Positions 52,182-57,265 of a stretch of DNA of 64,000 nucleotides are shown one piece after another. The position numbers and the translations under genes are program-made. The DNA is taken from the NCBI RefSeq assembly GCF_001998865.1, contig NZ_CP019607.1:2604001-2668000 (forward strand), written 5' to 3'. Every line of letters starts with the position of its first letter. The stretch's first letter is position 1. This DNA is from Tessaracoccus flavescens (GTDB lineage: Bacteria; Actinomycetota; Actinomycetes; Propionibacteriales; Propionibacteriaceae). Below the pieces are notes generated by a model, which was not told the DNA's origin, did not search any database, and worked only from the letters and a program-made list of their open reading frames with translations.

Positions 52182-53722
52182 GGCTGCTTCCCTGCGGGGA
52201 GCGGGCCCTGCTGATCGAGGTCGCCTCGCTCGACGAGGTGCTGGCCTTGGAGACCTCCCTCCGCGGGCTCGCCGAAGCCGGTCGCGGCGCCTGGGGTGAG
52301 GTCGTCGACGTGGTGCCTGCCGCGCGGACCGTGCTCGTGACGGGGCCGCCCGCCGACCTGCTCAGGCGGCTGGTCGAGGCCGCGCTCGGCTCCTCGGAGC
52401 TCTCGAGCGTCGCGTCGCCGCCCGTGCGCGAGGTGGTCATCCCCGTTCGCTACGACGGCCCCGACCTCGAGGACGTGGCCGACCTGACGGGCCTGACGGT
52501 GGACCAGGTGGTGGCCGCGCACACCGGGACCCCGTGGCGTGTCGCCTTCGGAGGGTTCGCCCCCGGCTTCGCCTACCTCGTCGGCGGCGACCCACGGCTG
52601 CGCGTCCCGCGCCGTGGCTCCCCGCGCACCCGCGTGCCTGCGGGCTCCGTCGGTCTGGCAGACGAGTTCAGCGGCGTCTATCCGACCTCCTCCCCGGGTG
52701 GGTGGCAGGTGATCGGGGAGAGCGACGTCGCCCTGTTCGACCCGTCCGCGCGCAAGCCAGCGCTGCTCACCCCAGGTACCCGGGTCCGGTTCGAGGCGAC
52801 CGACGCCCCGCCGACCGCCATCTCCCGCGGAGTACCTGCCGCCCAGACGACCTCGGCGCGCGCACTGCTCGTGGAGGAGACGCTGCTGCCGATCCTGATC
52901 GAGGACGAGGGCAGGCCGGGGCTGGCAGCCGTCGGGGTCGGCGCCTCTGGCGCGGCCAACCTCGGTGCCTACCGGCTGGGGGCGAGGCTGGTCGGCAACC
53001 GCGACGGTGAGGCGGCGCTCGAACTGGCCATGGGCCGGGCGGACCTGATCGCGGTCGGCGATCTGACACTCGCCCTGACCGGCAGCCCCTGCCTCGTCAC
53101 CGTCGACGGCCGCGCGGTGTCCGCGGGCATCGCCTTCACCGCCCCGGACGGCGCGAGGATCCGGATCGGCGCCCCCGCAGACGGGTTGAGGTCCTATCTG
53201 TCCGTGCGGGGCGGGATCGACGTGCCCGAAGTGCTCGGCTCGCGCTCCCGCGACACCCTCGGATCCCTCGGCCCGGAGCCGGCGGTGGCAGGAGCGCGCC
53301 TCCCCGTCGCGGAGGCGTCGGGGCCGTGGCTGCCGGTGATCGACTGGACGCCGCTCAGCGTCGAGCCGGTGGACCTGGTCGAGCTGCGCTACCTTCCCGG
53401 CCCGCGTGACGACTGGGTCGAGGGGATGGACGGATCCGAGTGGAGCGTCGGCTCCGCGGTCGACCGGATCGGCGCGCGGCTGACCGGAGAGCCCCTTCGC
53501 AGGCGCGAGGGTGAACTGCCGAGCGAGCCGGTGGTGCGGGGCGCCATCCAGGTCCCGCCGTCTGGGGAGCCGGTGCTCTTCCTCGCCGACCACCCGGTCA
53601 CCGGGGGATATCCGGTGGCAGGGGTGCTGACGGCTCAGGCGGCTGACAGCGCAGCCCAGCTCGGGCCGGGGCAGCGCTGTCGACTCGTCGCGGTGCGGCT
53701 CAGAGCACCGACTGCCGGTTGA
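52178..53722 (+). CDS. pxpBC: Fused 5-oxoprolinase subunits B and C
   Basis: The 514-residue protein joins PxpB (KipI-like, about 1-215, with RLLPCGERALLIEV and FGGFAPGFAYLVGGDPRLRVPRRGSPRTRVPAGSVGLADEFSGVYP) to PxpC (KipA-like, about 225-514, with GLAAVGVGASGAANLGAYRLGARLVGN and YLSVRGGIDVPEVLGSRSRDTLGSLG). PxpC ends early with VAVRLRAPTAG. The 3' end overlaps the convergent SUFU-like gene by 23 bp. Confidence 0.92.
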   Translation: MRLLPCGERALLIEVASLDEVLALETSLRGLAEAGRGAWGEVVDVVPAARTVLVTGPPADLLRRLVEAALGSSELSSVASPPVREVVIPVRYDGPDLEDVADLTGLTVDQVVAAHTGTPWRVAFGGFAPGFAYLVGGDPRLRVPRRGSPRTRVPAGSVGLADEFSGVYPTSSPGGWQVIGESDVALFDPSARKPALLTPGTRVRFEATDAPPTAISRGVPAAQTTSARALLVEETLLPILIEDEGRPGLAAVGVGASGAANLGAYRLGARLVGNRDGEAALELAMGRADLIAVGDLTLALTGSPCLVTVDGRAVSAGIAFTAPDGARIRIGAPADGLRSYLSVRGGIDVPEVLGSRSRDTLGSLGPEPAVAGARLPVAEASGPWLPVIDWTPLSVEPVDLVELRYLPGPRDDWVEGMDGSEWSVGSAVDRIGARLTGEPLRRREGELPSEPVVRGAIQVPPSGEPVLFLADHPVTGGYPVAGVLTAQAADSAAQLGPGQRCRLVAVRLRAPTAG

Positions 53723-54458
53723 CGTCCGAGACGACCCCGACGCCGGCCTCGGCAAGCTTCTCCACGAGTTCACCTCGGGCGGCACCGCCTCCCGAGACGA
53801 TGTAGGCCGTCTCGGCGGGGGTGATCAGCGTGATCGGGATCATCCGGATCTCCTCACCGGGAGCGAGGGTGACCTCCGCAGAGCGGCCGGGCGCCTCGAT
53901 CCCGATCAGGATGCCGATCGTGCCCTGCGGGGTGAACAGGTGCTCCGGCACCCCCTCAGGCGCGGGCAGCTCCATCGAGACGACCCCGTACTGCTCCAGG
54001 TGACCTGTGATGCCGCCGAGGTCGGCGACGTTCGCCGCGAAGTTCTGCAGGGCGCCCAGCTCCCAACTCCCCGCGATGGTGTTGAAGTTCGCACCCACCA
54101 GCGCGGGGGACTCGAGGTAGACCTCGGCCCCGAACCCGTTGGCCGGGCCGGAGTCGTCGCGGAACGGGTCGGTCATGCCGTCGGTGGCGAGGATGACCGT
54201 GTCGTCGGTGCGGGTGATGACATAGGACTGTCGCGTGGTCGGCCACGGCGGGGCGCCCATGAACTCCGGGCTGACGAGGTGCGCGACCACCTGGTCGTCG
54301 AGCGTCCCGATCCCGTTCCAGTAAGCGTTGCGGGCCTCGGCCCACTGCTCCCAGCGCGGATCGTCCTCCTCGACCTCCTCCTCGGCGGCCTGCCCGGGCG
54401 CATCGGCTGCCCGAGTGGCATTGTCGTCGTGCTTCTTCCGCTTGCTGAACCAACCCAT
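53700..54458 (-). CDS. Suppressor-of-fused-like domain protein
   Basis: The 252-residue product has a basic start (GWFSKRKKHDD) and an acidic linker, then a region resembling SUFU domains: ITRTDDTVILATDGMTDPFRDDSGPANGFGAEVYLESPALVG, and a later IGILIGIEAPG. Bacterial SUFU proteins are often immunity proteins of polymorphic toxins, although many stand alone. No toxin is next to it. ATG 54458 has AGGAAGG upstream and a TAGGCT box (54486-54491). Confidence 0.6.
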   Translation of the reverse strand: MGWFSKRKKHDDNATRAADAPGQAAEEEVEEDDPRWEQWAEARNAYWNGIGTLDDQVVAHLVSPEFMGAPPWPTTRQSYVITRTDDTVILATDGMTDPFRDDSGPANGFGAEVYLESPALVGANFNTIAGSWELGALQNFAANVADLGGITGHLEQYGVVSMELPAPEGVPEHLFTPQGTIGILIGIEAPGRSAEVTLAPGEEIRMIPITLITPAETAYIVSGGGAARGELVEKLAEAGVGVVSDVNRQSVL

Positions 54459-55168: not shown

Positions 55169-56899
55169 TCAGCTGAAGCGCACGATCCCGTTGAACACCC
55201 ACGCGTCGGCCTGGACGAAACTCCAGCCGCCCGAGGCGGCGGGAACCGCCGAGACGGTGGTGGCGAGCAGATAGTTGCGACAGCCGCCGCGTCCGGTCAC
55301 GGCCGAGTCACAGTCGGTGCGCCACATCCTGTTCTCGGGGCTGGTCCATTCGCCCTTCTCGGCGAGCGGGTTGCCTGCCCAGAGCGCGCGCGGGGATGGG
55401 AGGTAGGTGAGGTTGTTGAATGCCCATCCGGTGGTGCGCACGTAGCGGCCGTCGCGCAGGACGACCGTCGTGGCCCAGATCTCGGTGCGGCACCGGGTGG
55501 TCTTCGAGTACGGCTCACACGTCGTCGACCAGGCACGTCCGCCGGAGGTGTGCAGTCCAGGTGTGGTGTAGACGTCCACGACCGGCGCGGTCGGGGTGCC
55601 GGGCCTCGGCGTGGCGGTGCGGCTCGGGGATGAGGACGGGGTCGCGTCAGGCGTCGCGCTCGGCGTCGGGTCAGGCTTCGGGGAGACGGAGGGTGACGCG
55701 CTGGGTGAAGGGCTGGGCTCGGCGGTCAGCGTGACGGTCGCGACCCGGCTGAAGCTCGACCCGTTGGCGTTGGTCGCGGTCAGCCGGTACTGCCCCTCGG
55801 TCGCGGGGGAGAGGGTCGCCGAGGTGGCGCCGTCCACGTCGACCCACGCGCCGTCGAAGCGCTGCCACTGCAGCGTGTCGCCGTCGGTGACGTCGGCCGT
55901 CAGGCGGGCCGAGGAGGGAGGGGCCGTGACGTCGGAAGGCTGGGCGGCGATCGTGGGCGGCTGGGCGCACGTCGGGGTGACCTCACCGGTGGCGCGCGCC
56001 GTGCCGTAGCCCGCGCCAGTTGCACCGAGGATCGCCTGGGTCGTCGCCATCAACTGTGGTTTCGTGCCGTTCAGGGTGTTGCTCCACCCGGAGCCGGTGA
56101 GGGACTGCTGCGCGGCGAGGAACGCCTGCGGGGACGTCACGTCCTCGCCGACCTCGGCGAGGGCGCTCGCCATGAGACCGGTCGAGTTCGCGGGCGAGTA
56201 GGTGGCCCAGTAGTAGTTGCCGTCAAGCTGCCTGCGGGCGGCGTCGGAGCGTGACCAGGCGACGGCCTTGTCGATCGCCGCCCTCGCCGTGGCGCGGGTC
56301 TCGGCGGCCTCGACCTCTGAGTCGGCGACGAGCCCGAGTGCATACAGCGACATGGCGGTGTCGTCGGGCTGGGCGGTGAATGCCGCACCTGAACCGTAGC
56401 CCCACGCTCCGCCGGAGTGCTGCGTCGACAGGATCTTCTCGAGCGCGGCCTCAGGGGCAGGCTCACCGAGCCTGGCGAGCGAGATCACGACGAGCTGTGG
56501 CGCCCAGTAGGCACTGAGCTTGCCCGCCTCTGCGTCGGCGCGCTGGGTCTCTGCCCAGTTCGTGGCACAGCTCGCGTCCGCGAAGAACCGGGCGTCGAGG
56601 TTCGCGGCATCGGCCGCAATCATCAGTTTGCCCCGCGAGGCGGCATTGCCTGCTGACCCGGCCGCCGAGCCGGCGAAGGCCTTGAGCATCCCGTCCAGGG
56701 CGGTCGGCTGGGTGTCGGCGGCGGCGAGAGCGATGATCGCGTCCGCCCCTCCCGGTGCGGAGGTTGCTATATAGTCTGCGGCGGCCGTCACGGCGGCCCG
56801 GAGCTGGTCATCGGCGTTCGCGGCGCTGACGGGAACCACGGTCAGCAGCAGCGCGGCCAATGAACCGACCGCTGACGCGGCGGTGAAACGGGTGGGCAC
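55169..56899 (-). CDS. Secreted alpha-toroid protein, candidate extracellular cobalamin binder
   Basis: The 576-residue protein has a signal peptide (1-26), an alpha/alpha-toroid of prenyltransferase/transcobalamin type (about 30-305; QHSGGAWGYGSGAAF...DDTAMSLYALG), an Ig-like domain (about 315-392), a Pro/Ser/Thr linker (393-440) and a C-terminal domain with Cys461, Cys470, Cys530 and Cys540 (GWAFNNLTYLPSPRALWAGN). The long leader is a cobalamin riboswitch. Intrinsic factor and haptocorrin bind B12 with the same toroid, so a role in B12 capture at the cell surface is inferred. No transmembrane anchor or sorting signal is visible; the last domain may bind the wall. Confidence 0.75.
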   Translation of the reverse strand: MPTRFTAASAVGSLAALLLTVVPVSAANADDQLRAAVTAAADYIATSAPGGADAIIALAAADTQPTALDGMLKAFAGSAAGSAGNAASRGKLMIAADAANLDARFFADASCATNWAETQRADAEAGKLSAYWAPQLVVISLARLGEPAPEAALEKILSTQHSGGAWGYGSGAAFTAQPDDTAMSLYALGLVADSEVEAAETRATARAAIDKAVAWSRSDAARRQLDGNYYWATYSPANSTGLMASALAEVGEDVTSPQAFLAAQQSLTGSGWSNTLNGTKPQLMATTQAILGATGAGYGTARATGEVTPTCAQPPTIAAQPSDVTAPPSSARLTADVTDGDTLQWQRFDGAWVDVDGATSATLSPATEGQYRLTATNANGSSFSRVATVTLTAEPSPSPSASPSVSPKPDPTPSATPDATPSSSPSRTATPRPGTPTAPVVDVYTTPGLHTSGGRAWSTTCEPYSKTTRCRTEIWATTVVLRDGRYVRTTGWAFNNLTYLPSPRALWAGNPLAEKGEWTSPENRMWRTDCDSAVTGRGGCRNYLLATTVSAVPAASGGWSFVQADAWVFNGIVRFS

Positions 56900-56989
56900 C
56901 TCGGGTACTCCTTCGATGGTGAGGGCACGAGGGAGGTGCTGGCGCGAAGCGGCACCCGACCCACCCCGTAGACCTCGACGGGTTTTGTT

Positions 56990-57098
56990 CGGTCGGCTTC
57001 GTGTCCCCAGGCATTCCGGCTGTGGCCCCGAGGGGCCTTCACGGTTGCGGGTCAGCTCTGGATTCGAACCAGATTCCCCCGGAGGTGAAGTCGTGAAG
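56990..57098 (-). promoter_or_regulatory. Cobalamin riboswitch
   Basis: On the minus strand, GGGAATCTGGT (57078-57068), GCTGACCCGCAACCGTGA (57056-57039) and the B12 box region AGCCGGAATGCC (57021-57010) follow the conserved cobalamin aptamer order, with a hairpin AGGCCCC-TCG-GGGGCC-like arm between the last two. The start codon at 56899 lies about 90 nt beyond. A leader GGGTGGG (56966-56960) can pair with CCCACCC in codons 2-4. Confidence 0.85.
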
Positions 57099-57104
57099 AG
57101 GCTA
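57099..57104 (-). promoter_or_regulatory. -10 box upstream of the riboswitch
   Basis: Minus-strand TAGCCT places transcription start near 57092, at the 5' edge of the aptamer. Confidence 0.5.
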
Positions 57105-57192: not shown

Positions 57193-57219
57193 TTGGCACT
57201 CGGCTTGATTGAGTGCTAA
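57193..57219 (+). promoter_or_regulatory. CIRCE element 1 (HrcA operator)
   Basis: TTGGCACTC-N9-GAGTGCTAA, one change from the CIRCE consensus. It overlaps the -35 region of the groES promoter (TTGATT 57205-57210, TAGTTT 57228-57233, spacer 17 bp). Confidence 0.9.
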
Positions 57220-57238: not shown

Positions 57239-57265
57239 TTGGCACTCGACCCGTTCGGGTGCTAA
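57239..57265 (+). promoter_or_regulatory. CIRCE element 2
   Basis: TTGGCACTC-N9-GGGTGCTAA, one further mismatch in the right arm, just downstream of the -10 box. Two operators suggest tight HrcA repression. Confidence 0.8.

Follow-up and report, generated by a model that had tools for sequence, protein, structure and literature searches.

What does an exported protein do when its gene lies behind a riboswitch of the cobalamin clan? The question is raised by a 64,000-nucleotide stretch of the Tessaracoccus flavescens genome (NZ_CP019607.1, assembly GCF_001998865.1, positions 2,604,001 to 2,668,000), here called the window, in which coordinates are counted unless a locus of a relative is named. 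A compact riboswitch and the gene downstream of it both lie on the minus strand of the window. The preliminary description of this locus, which left the strand unstated, had read them as a cobalamin riboswitch controlling a secreted transcobalamin-like protein. The observation is confirmed, and the reading built on it is right in direction, although wrong in taking such a target to be rare and an importer to be lacking. Our preferred answer, which we consider probable, is that the gene encodes the alpha half of a split transcobalamin, repressed by B12, that captures B12 for an energy-coupling factor (ECF) importer.

The first step is the identity of the RNA element. Its leader has these features, from 5′ to 3′:

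57099 to 57104, minus strand: −10-like TANNNT hexamer TAGCCT, just 5′ of the riboswitch, read from the sequence
56960 to 57096, minus strand: compact cobalamin-clan riboswitch with a 3′ hairpin, from RF00174 (25.4 bits), a leave-out model (85.9 bits) and covariation
57050 to 57053, minus strand: L5 GACC, candidate kissing-loop partner, which pairs with GGUC at 56974-56971
56965 to 56982, minus strand: 3′ hairpin CCCGUCGAGGUCUACGGG, P13-like, with a conserved loop and, in some of 16 aligned leaders, two-sided changes at three of its six pairs
56908 to 56914, minus strand: Shine-Dalgarno sequence GAAGGAG, 8 nucleotides 5′ of the GTG start codon, read from the sequence

The two aptamer core stretches quoted in the preliminary description are present at 57056-57042 and 57021-57010, and the element contains the conserved core, GCUGACCCGCAACCGU and AGCCGGAA, with P4 and P6 paired. 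At the gathering threshold, no Rfam family is found anywhere in the window. When the threshold is lowered to an E-value, RF00174 matches 57077-57001 at 25.4 bits (E = 1.6e-4), against a gathering cut-off of 31.5 bits. The preliminary description had made an RF00174 hit at that cut-off its check, and taken literally the element falls short of it; however, the gathering threshold is a curation cut-off and not a structural feature, and equivalent elements in the corresponding position reach or exceed the Rfam cut-off of a clan family in 22 of 27 toroid loci sampled outside the genus. A covariance model (R2) built from 14 leaders, with the window and its nearest relative excluded, locates the element at 57096-56960 with 85.9 bits (E = 5e-22), and the second-best place in the window scores 13.0 bits. 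Because this leave-out result is decisive, the sub-threshold match is still more than chance.

Covariation leads to the same structure. The alignment comprises 16 leaders of this type, one of them from the window, and RNAalifold recovers from it P4, P6 and the 3′ hairpin with compensatory changes in 8 of 16 pairs. When a candidate kissing helix and one extra pair are added to these, 92.5% of 335 cells are paired and both sides have changed in 10 of 21 pairs. The covariation score is 0.383 versus 0.135 for shuffled alignments, none of 500 shuffles reaching the observed value, and control structures slid along the alignment are at most 44.5% paired. A kissing loop between L5 and L13 is a known mechanism of cobalamin riboswitches, as the available text of PMC9600662 describes, and the 3′ hairpin could be L13. 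The candidate GACC/GGUC contact is paired in 90.6% of cells; one of its four pairs has three compensatory changes and five unpaired cases, and another has one unpaired case. A second register, GUGG/CCGC, comes from eye inspection only, and a kiss of the P6 loop CCTCG with CGAGG, seen in the window, was rejected since it is not kept in leader G003_a.

In its P4, P6, B12-box region, upstream place and B12-linked genes, the element resembles class I riboswitches (RF00174, clan CL00101). It differs in being compact, in its score below the gathering cut-off, in a kissing pair that is partly supported and in the conserved loop of its 3′ hairpin. This loop, GUCGNGGNCUNC (alignment columns 137-154; window 56982-56965), is near-invariant across the 16 leaders, a conservation that would seem to exceed what a simple kissing loop needs. 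At the level of sequence, then, a cobalamin-clan riboswitch precedes the gene of a predicted exported protein, and its ligand is presumably cobalamin.

How would such an element act? The preliminary description placed a promoter at the aptamer edge. A search for a sigma-70 consensus before the riboswitch found none, but the TANNNT hexamer at 57104-57099 is conserved in its placement: in 12 of the 16 leaders such a hexamer starts 3-9 nucleotides 5′ of the aligned element, and in the remaining four the distance is 20-27 nucleotides. Mononucleotide shuffles give a mean of 2.4 leaders, and 0 of 2000 reach 12. The leader RNA therefore probably begins at the aptamer. A search for a terminator on the minus strand after the aptamer found none, which makes transcription attenuation less likely. 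When seven leaders were folded with RNAfold, the Shine-Dalgarno sequence lay in a hairpin with an upstream strand in five (G003_a, G001_a, G033, G036_a and G012_a); the hairpin is less clear in the window leader, and in G023 the sequence pairs downstream. We propose that cobalamin bound to the riboswitch would lower translation, that is, an OFF switch at the level of translation.

The next step is the protein. Its parts, in the order of the chain, are as follows:

55169 to 56899, minus strand: open reading frame of a toroid/Ig/C-terminal-domain protein, 576 amino acids, exported-looking, starting with GTG, from homologues and a structure model
56828 to 56899, minus strand: signal-peptide-like N-terminus, residues 1-24, judged by eye, with low predicted local-distance difference test (pLDDT) values at 1-27
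55982 to 56827, minus strand: alpha6/alpha6 toroid of 12 helices, residues 25-306, from the AlphaFold2 model
55727 to 55963, minus strand: Ig-like domain, residues 313-391, from AlphaFold2 strands at 316-391 and Pfam I-set/Ig_3 matches in relatives P0005, P0006, P0016 and P0017
55172 to 55579, minus strand: C-terminal all-beta domain, residues 441-576, from the AlphaFold2 model, common to many exported proteins of the genus

Secretion, as proposed earlier, fits the N-terminus, where the call is by eye and not by a signal-peptide program. The proposed Ig-like domain is borne out by the model and by the relatives, the window protein itself giving sub-cut-off Pfam matches only. Across the whole protein, Pfam and NCBIfam gave nothing above cut-off, and a sequence search of the PDB returned low-complexity matches and a weak match to internalin K. 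The likeness of the toroid to that of intrinsic factor is upheld by fold comparison: in a Foldseek search with the toroid model, intrinsic factor and transcobalamin take ranks 1-5.

The likeness to a carrier has limits, and two observations favor an exported enzyme, resembling terpene cyclases or corrinoid-processing proteins, under B12 control: the Z score of the toroid ties with terpene cyclases (drimenyl diphosphate synthase, with squalene-hopene cyclase near), and the toroid profile prefers squalene-hopene cyclase in the PDB (E = 2.2e-6). The fold alone is not specific, and a profile of 15 toroids found no transcobalamin or intrinsic factor chain up to E = 10. Toroids of a second type match squalene cyclase weakly, below the cut-off. 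For relative P0005, searched together with its beta domain, the Foldseek listing is dominated by Ig domains, and in VIA drimenyl diphosphate synthase (21.8) is level with intrinsic factor (21.6). Domain scans of the window protein found no beta domain of the DUF4430 type, so that "transcobalamin-like" is limited to an alpha-type half. However, the match to squalene-hopene cyclase consists of short stretches, none significant singly, and the neighbors of these toroid genes, among those classified, are beta-domain and ECF genes. Cyclases of these two types are intracellular or membrane enzymes, and the exported look of the window protein therefore argues against an enzyme, which we regard as the least probable of the alternatives and very improbable in itself.

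The neighbors come from a survey of relatives. Among 39 genomes of the genus, protein searches and domain scans found 12 toroid lead genes, of which 11 have the switch; the toroid lead gene of G004 (L057) has none in its available stretch. Those 11 switches are among the training sequences of a model (R1), and RF00174 independently lists at least nine of them (at least eight in relatives, plus that of the window). The best R1 locus was taken in 30 of the 39 genomes, the window's included, and in 25 of these loci the switch has a toroid, beta-domain or ECF gene nearby; the other five were unclassified (L086, L090, L104, L105 and L107). In the family, the toroid occurs in 36 of 77 genomes and 16 of 29 genera (43 matches). 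Of the 42 matches outside the genus, our sample comprises 27, the top match of each of 27 genomes; the other 15 are weaker. Both R1 and Rfam place a cobalamin-clan riboswitch directly upstream of the toroid in 25 of these 27 loci and find none upstream in L222 and L229; starts of open reading frames were set mechanically, and in some cases they reach into the 3′ end of the switch. The view that such a target is uncommon thus does not hold. Among the loci examined, a toroid behind a predicted cobalamin riboswitch is the usual arrangement in this bacterial family, and several such genes lie inside an ECF operon.

The linkage extends to gene order and to single chains. In L190, L193 and L195 the order is toroid, beta, EcfT. 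Toroid and beta domain are fused in one chain in three relatives, the beta domain preceding the toroid in P0005 and following it in P0021 and P0090; this fusion points to a functional pair. Across the phylum, loci of the SCO2322 type neighbor toroid-like, beta-like and EcfT/EcfA genes, with weak toroid scores; the SCO2322 family has matches in 23 of 149 genomes, four of them above the cut-off. Two further arrangements of cobalamin riboswitches were seen. Four relatives have a second, diverged ECF-like cluster between two of them (L069 9976-12299, L070 11679-14005, L072 5533-8051 and L073 4422-6637). Elsewhere two riboswitches lie back to back and divergent (L058 1025-1401, L188 826-1159 and L189 829-1164), one leading to a toroid gene and, in L188 and L189, the other to a beta-domain/leucine-rich repeat (LRR) gene.

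If the usual partner is an ECF importer, where is that of T. flavescens? The preliminary description found no B12 ABC importer nearby, and this fits the immediate neighbors: the window gene has a DUF3788 gene downstream and a divergent groES upstream, and domain scans found no EcfT, EcfA or S component beside it. Approximately 0.31 Mb from the window gene, however, lies an ECF operon controlled by a riboswitch of this class. RF00174 has six places in this genome at E ≤ 1, one of them above the cut-off. Among those elsewhere are places before cbiM and a cob operon (gene names assigned by eye), one before the ECF operon, and one before a second toroid gene, which shares the C-terminal domain of the window protein and lies behind the ECF operon. 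The operon encodes a DUF4430-like exported protein of 205 amino acids, a beta-domain protein of 321 amino acids, EcfT (CbiQ), EcfA and a PF12822 S component. Profile comparison unites the two kinds of beta domain in one family (probability 98.1). They match DUF4430 weakly (four of nine members, below the cut-off) and the SCO2322 family weakly (11 of 11, best 4.3e-7), and their profile searches gave no transcobalamin match. The same genome also has a cobalamin-switched protein with LRRs (internalin-like), a beta domain and the C-terminal domain (L009 6090-8735).

The window gene is a detached paralogue, and its product lacks a beta domain. Might it be a decaying or diverged duplicate of an ECF-linked gene, still switched, with no current role in B12 capture? 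The missing beta domain, the lack of an adjacent importer and the further toroid gene that follows the ECF operon would fit this. Yet the reading frame and the switch are intact and the Shine-Dalgarno sequence is good, and a 60%-identical orthologue in G003 keeps the same Ig and C-terminal domains and the same switch, with an ECF-like cluster 3.6 kb away. We judge a duplicate with no current role in capture to be very unlikely.

The C-terminal domain raises a further alternative. The window protein as query has 33 matches in its own genome, and among those listed seven of eight cover the C-terminal part only. Homologues of this domain are attached to M23, metallophosphoesterase, LRR or glycosidase domains; it contains Cys, recurs in many exported but otherwise unrelated proteins of the genus, and has no Pfam match above cut-off. 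In this alternative the riboswitch is real but the toroid would bind something other than B12, such as a surface glycan or peptide, as part of an adhesin-like protein made when B12 is short. The alpha6/alpha6 barrels in the fold comparison include GH76 and GH105. In the available text of PMC9600381, cobalamin riboswitches of Cutibacterium acnes precede adhesin fragments and thrombospondin type-3 repeat proteins whose role is left unknown there, and P0091 of Cutibacterium avidum combines a toroid with PKD and TSP_3 domains and has no beta-domain match. Against an adhesin stand the best Foldseek ranks, which B12 carriers hold, and the fact that in several genera the switch is followed by a group of toroid, beta-domain and ECF genes. 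We consider an adhesin-like role unlikely, though the most credible of the alternatives. By its toroid, P0091 suggests that the riboswitch-controlled "adhesin" and thrombospondin-repeat genes of C. acnes may belong to the system described here.

In the preferred reading, that of a split B12 carrier, plentiful intracellular cobalamin would lead the riboswitch to shut translation of an exported, surface-located capture component, which corresponds to the toroid side of a transcobalamin-like pair. Other exported proteins, of the DUF4430/SCO2322-like kind, would supply the beta side; in relatives these are part of the same chain or the product of an adjacent gene. At the cell surface the two halves would hold B12 between them and then pass it to an ECF importer of the Cbr type, itself under riboswitch control, whose genes lie at another place in the genome. 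According to the available text of two papers, the alpha and beta parts of transcobalamin, when separately expressed, assemble only with cobalamin (PMC5599065), and B12 carriers bind first through beta, after which alpha closes (PMC11107200). A toroid acting with a beta-domain partner would follow this carrier biology.

Three further results stand apart from this argument. Two CIRCE-type inverted repeats (57193-57219 and 57239-57265; shuffles expect 0) precede the divergent groES and share the intergenic region with the riboswitch gene; we take them to be HrcA operators. A SUFU (Suppressor of fused) domain protein lies at 53700-54458 on the minus strand, its Pfam match (E = 1e-5) barely above the cut-off. 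A plasmid search gave no match.

It is useful to contrast this arrangement with known systems, as described in the available portions of the papers cited. Intrinsic factor, transcobalamin and haptocorrin share with it the alpha6/alpha6 toroid of the window protein and, in relatives, a weakly DUF4430-like beta domain. They differ in that the window protein lacks the beta domain, its sequence profile falls short of transcobalamin and intrinsic factor, and the fused relatives vary in domain order. BtuG of Bacteroides also captures B12 at the cell surface, and its loci combine B12 riboswitches with importer genes, but it is a lipoprotein working with BtuB, and homologues were not found outside Bacteroidetes (PMC6143338). 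The ECF-CbrT (cbrUVT) transporters resemble the EcfT, EcfA and PF12822 components of T. flavescens, whose S component is only putatively CbrT, and no exported capture partner is described for them in these portions of PMC5997447 and PMC8123684. The riboswitch class, ECF cobalamin transporters (PMC5997447) and surface B12 capture by BtuG (PMC6143338) are thus already known. In the open-licence PMC literature, as far as its available text goes, we found no description of the toroid/beta/ECF arrangement or of an exported, transcobalamin-like protein as partner to an ECF system in actinobacteria.

Finally, the system may bear on how these bacteria obtain B12. A survey that included Tessaracoccus sp. 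T2.5-30 sought BtuBCDF, BtuM, Rv1819c and CbrT; in its available text, CbrT is reported from no isolate and complete BtuBCDF from one other isolate alone, and the authors state that other entry routes must exist (PMC10378866). Some bacteria that need B12 have no recognized importer, and our finding names a candidate capture-and-import system together with its regulator. Whether this amounts to an actinobacterial split transcobalamin is in our view evenly balanced. In such a system, exported alpha-toroid and beta proteins, in one or separate chains, would assemble round B12 at the surface and feed an ECF importer, all under cobalamin riboswitches; mammalian B12 carriers would share its design or ancestry, and in skin Cutibacterium the "adhesins" under riboswitch control would serve to catch B12. 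If the toroid and beta proteins do bind B12 together, the fold of the mammalian carriers has a working bacterial counterpart.
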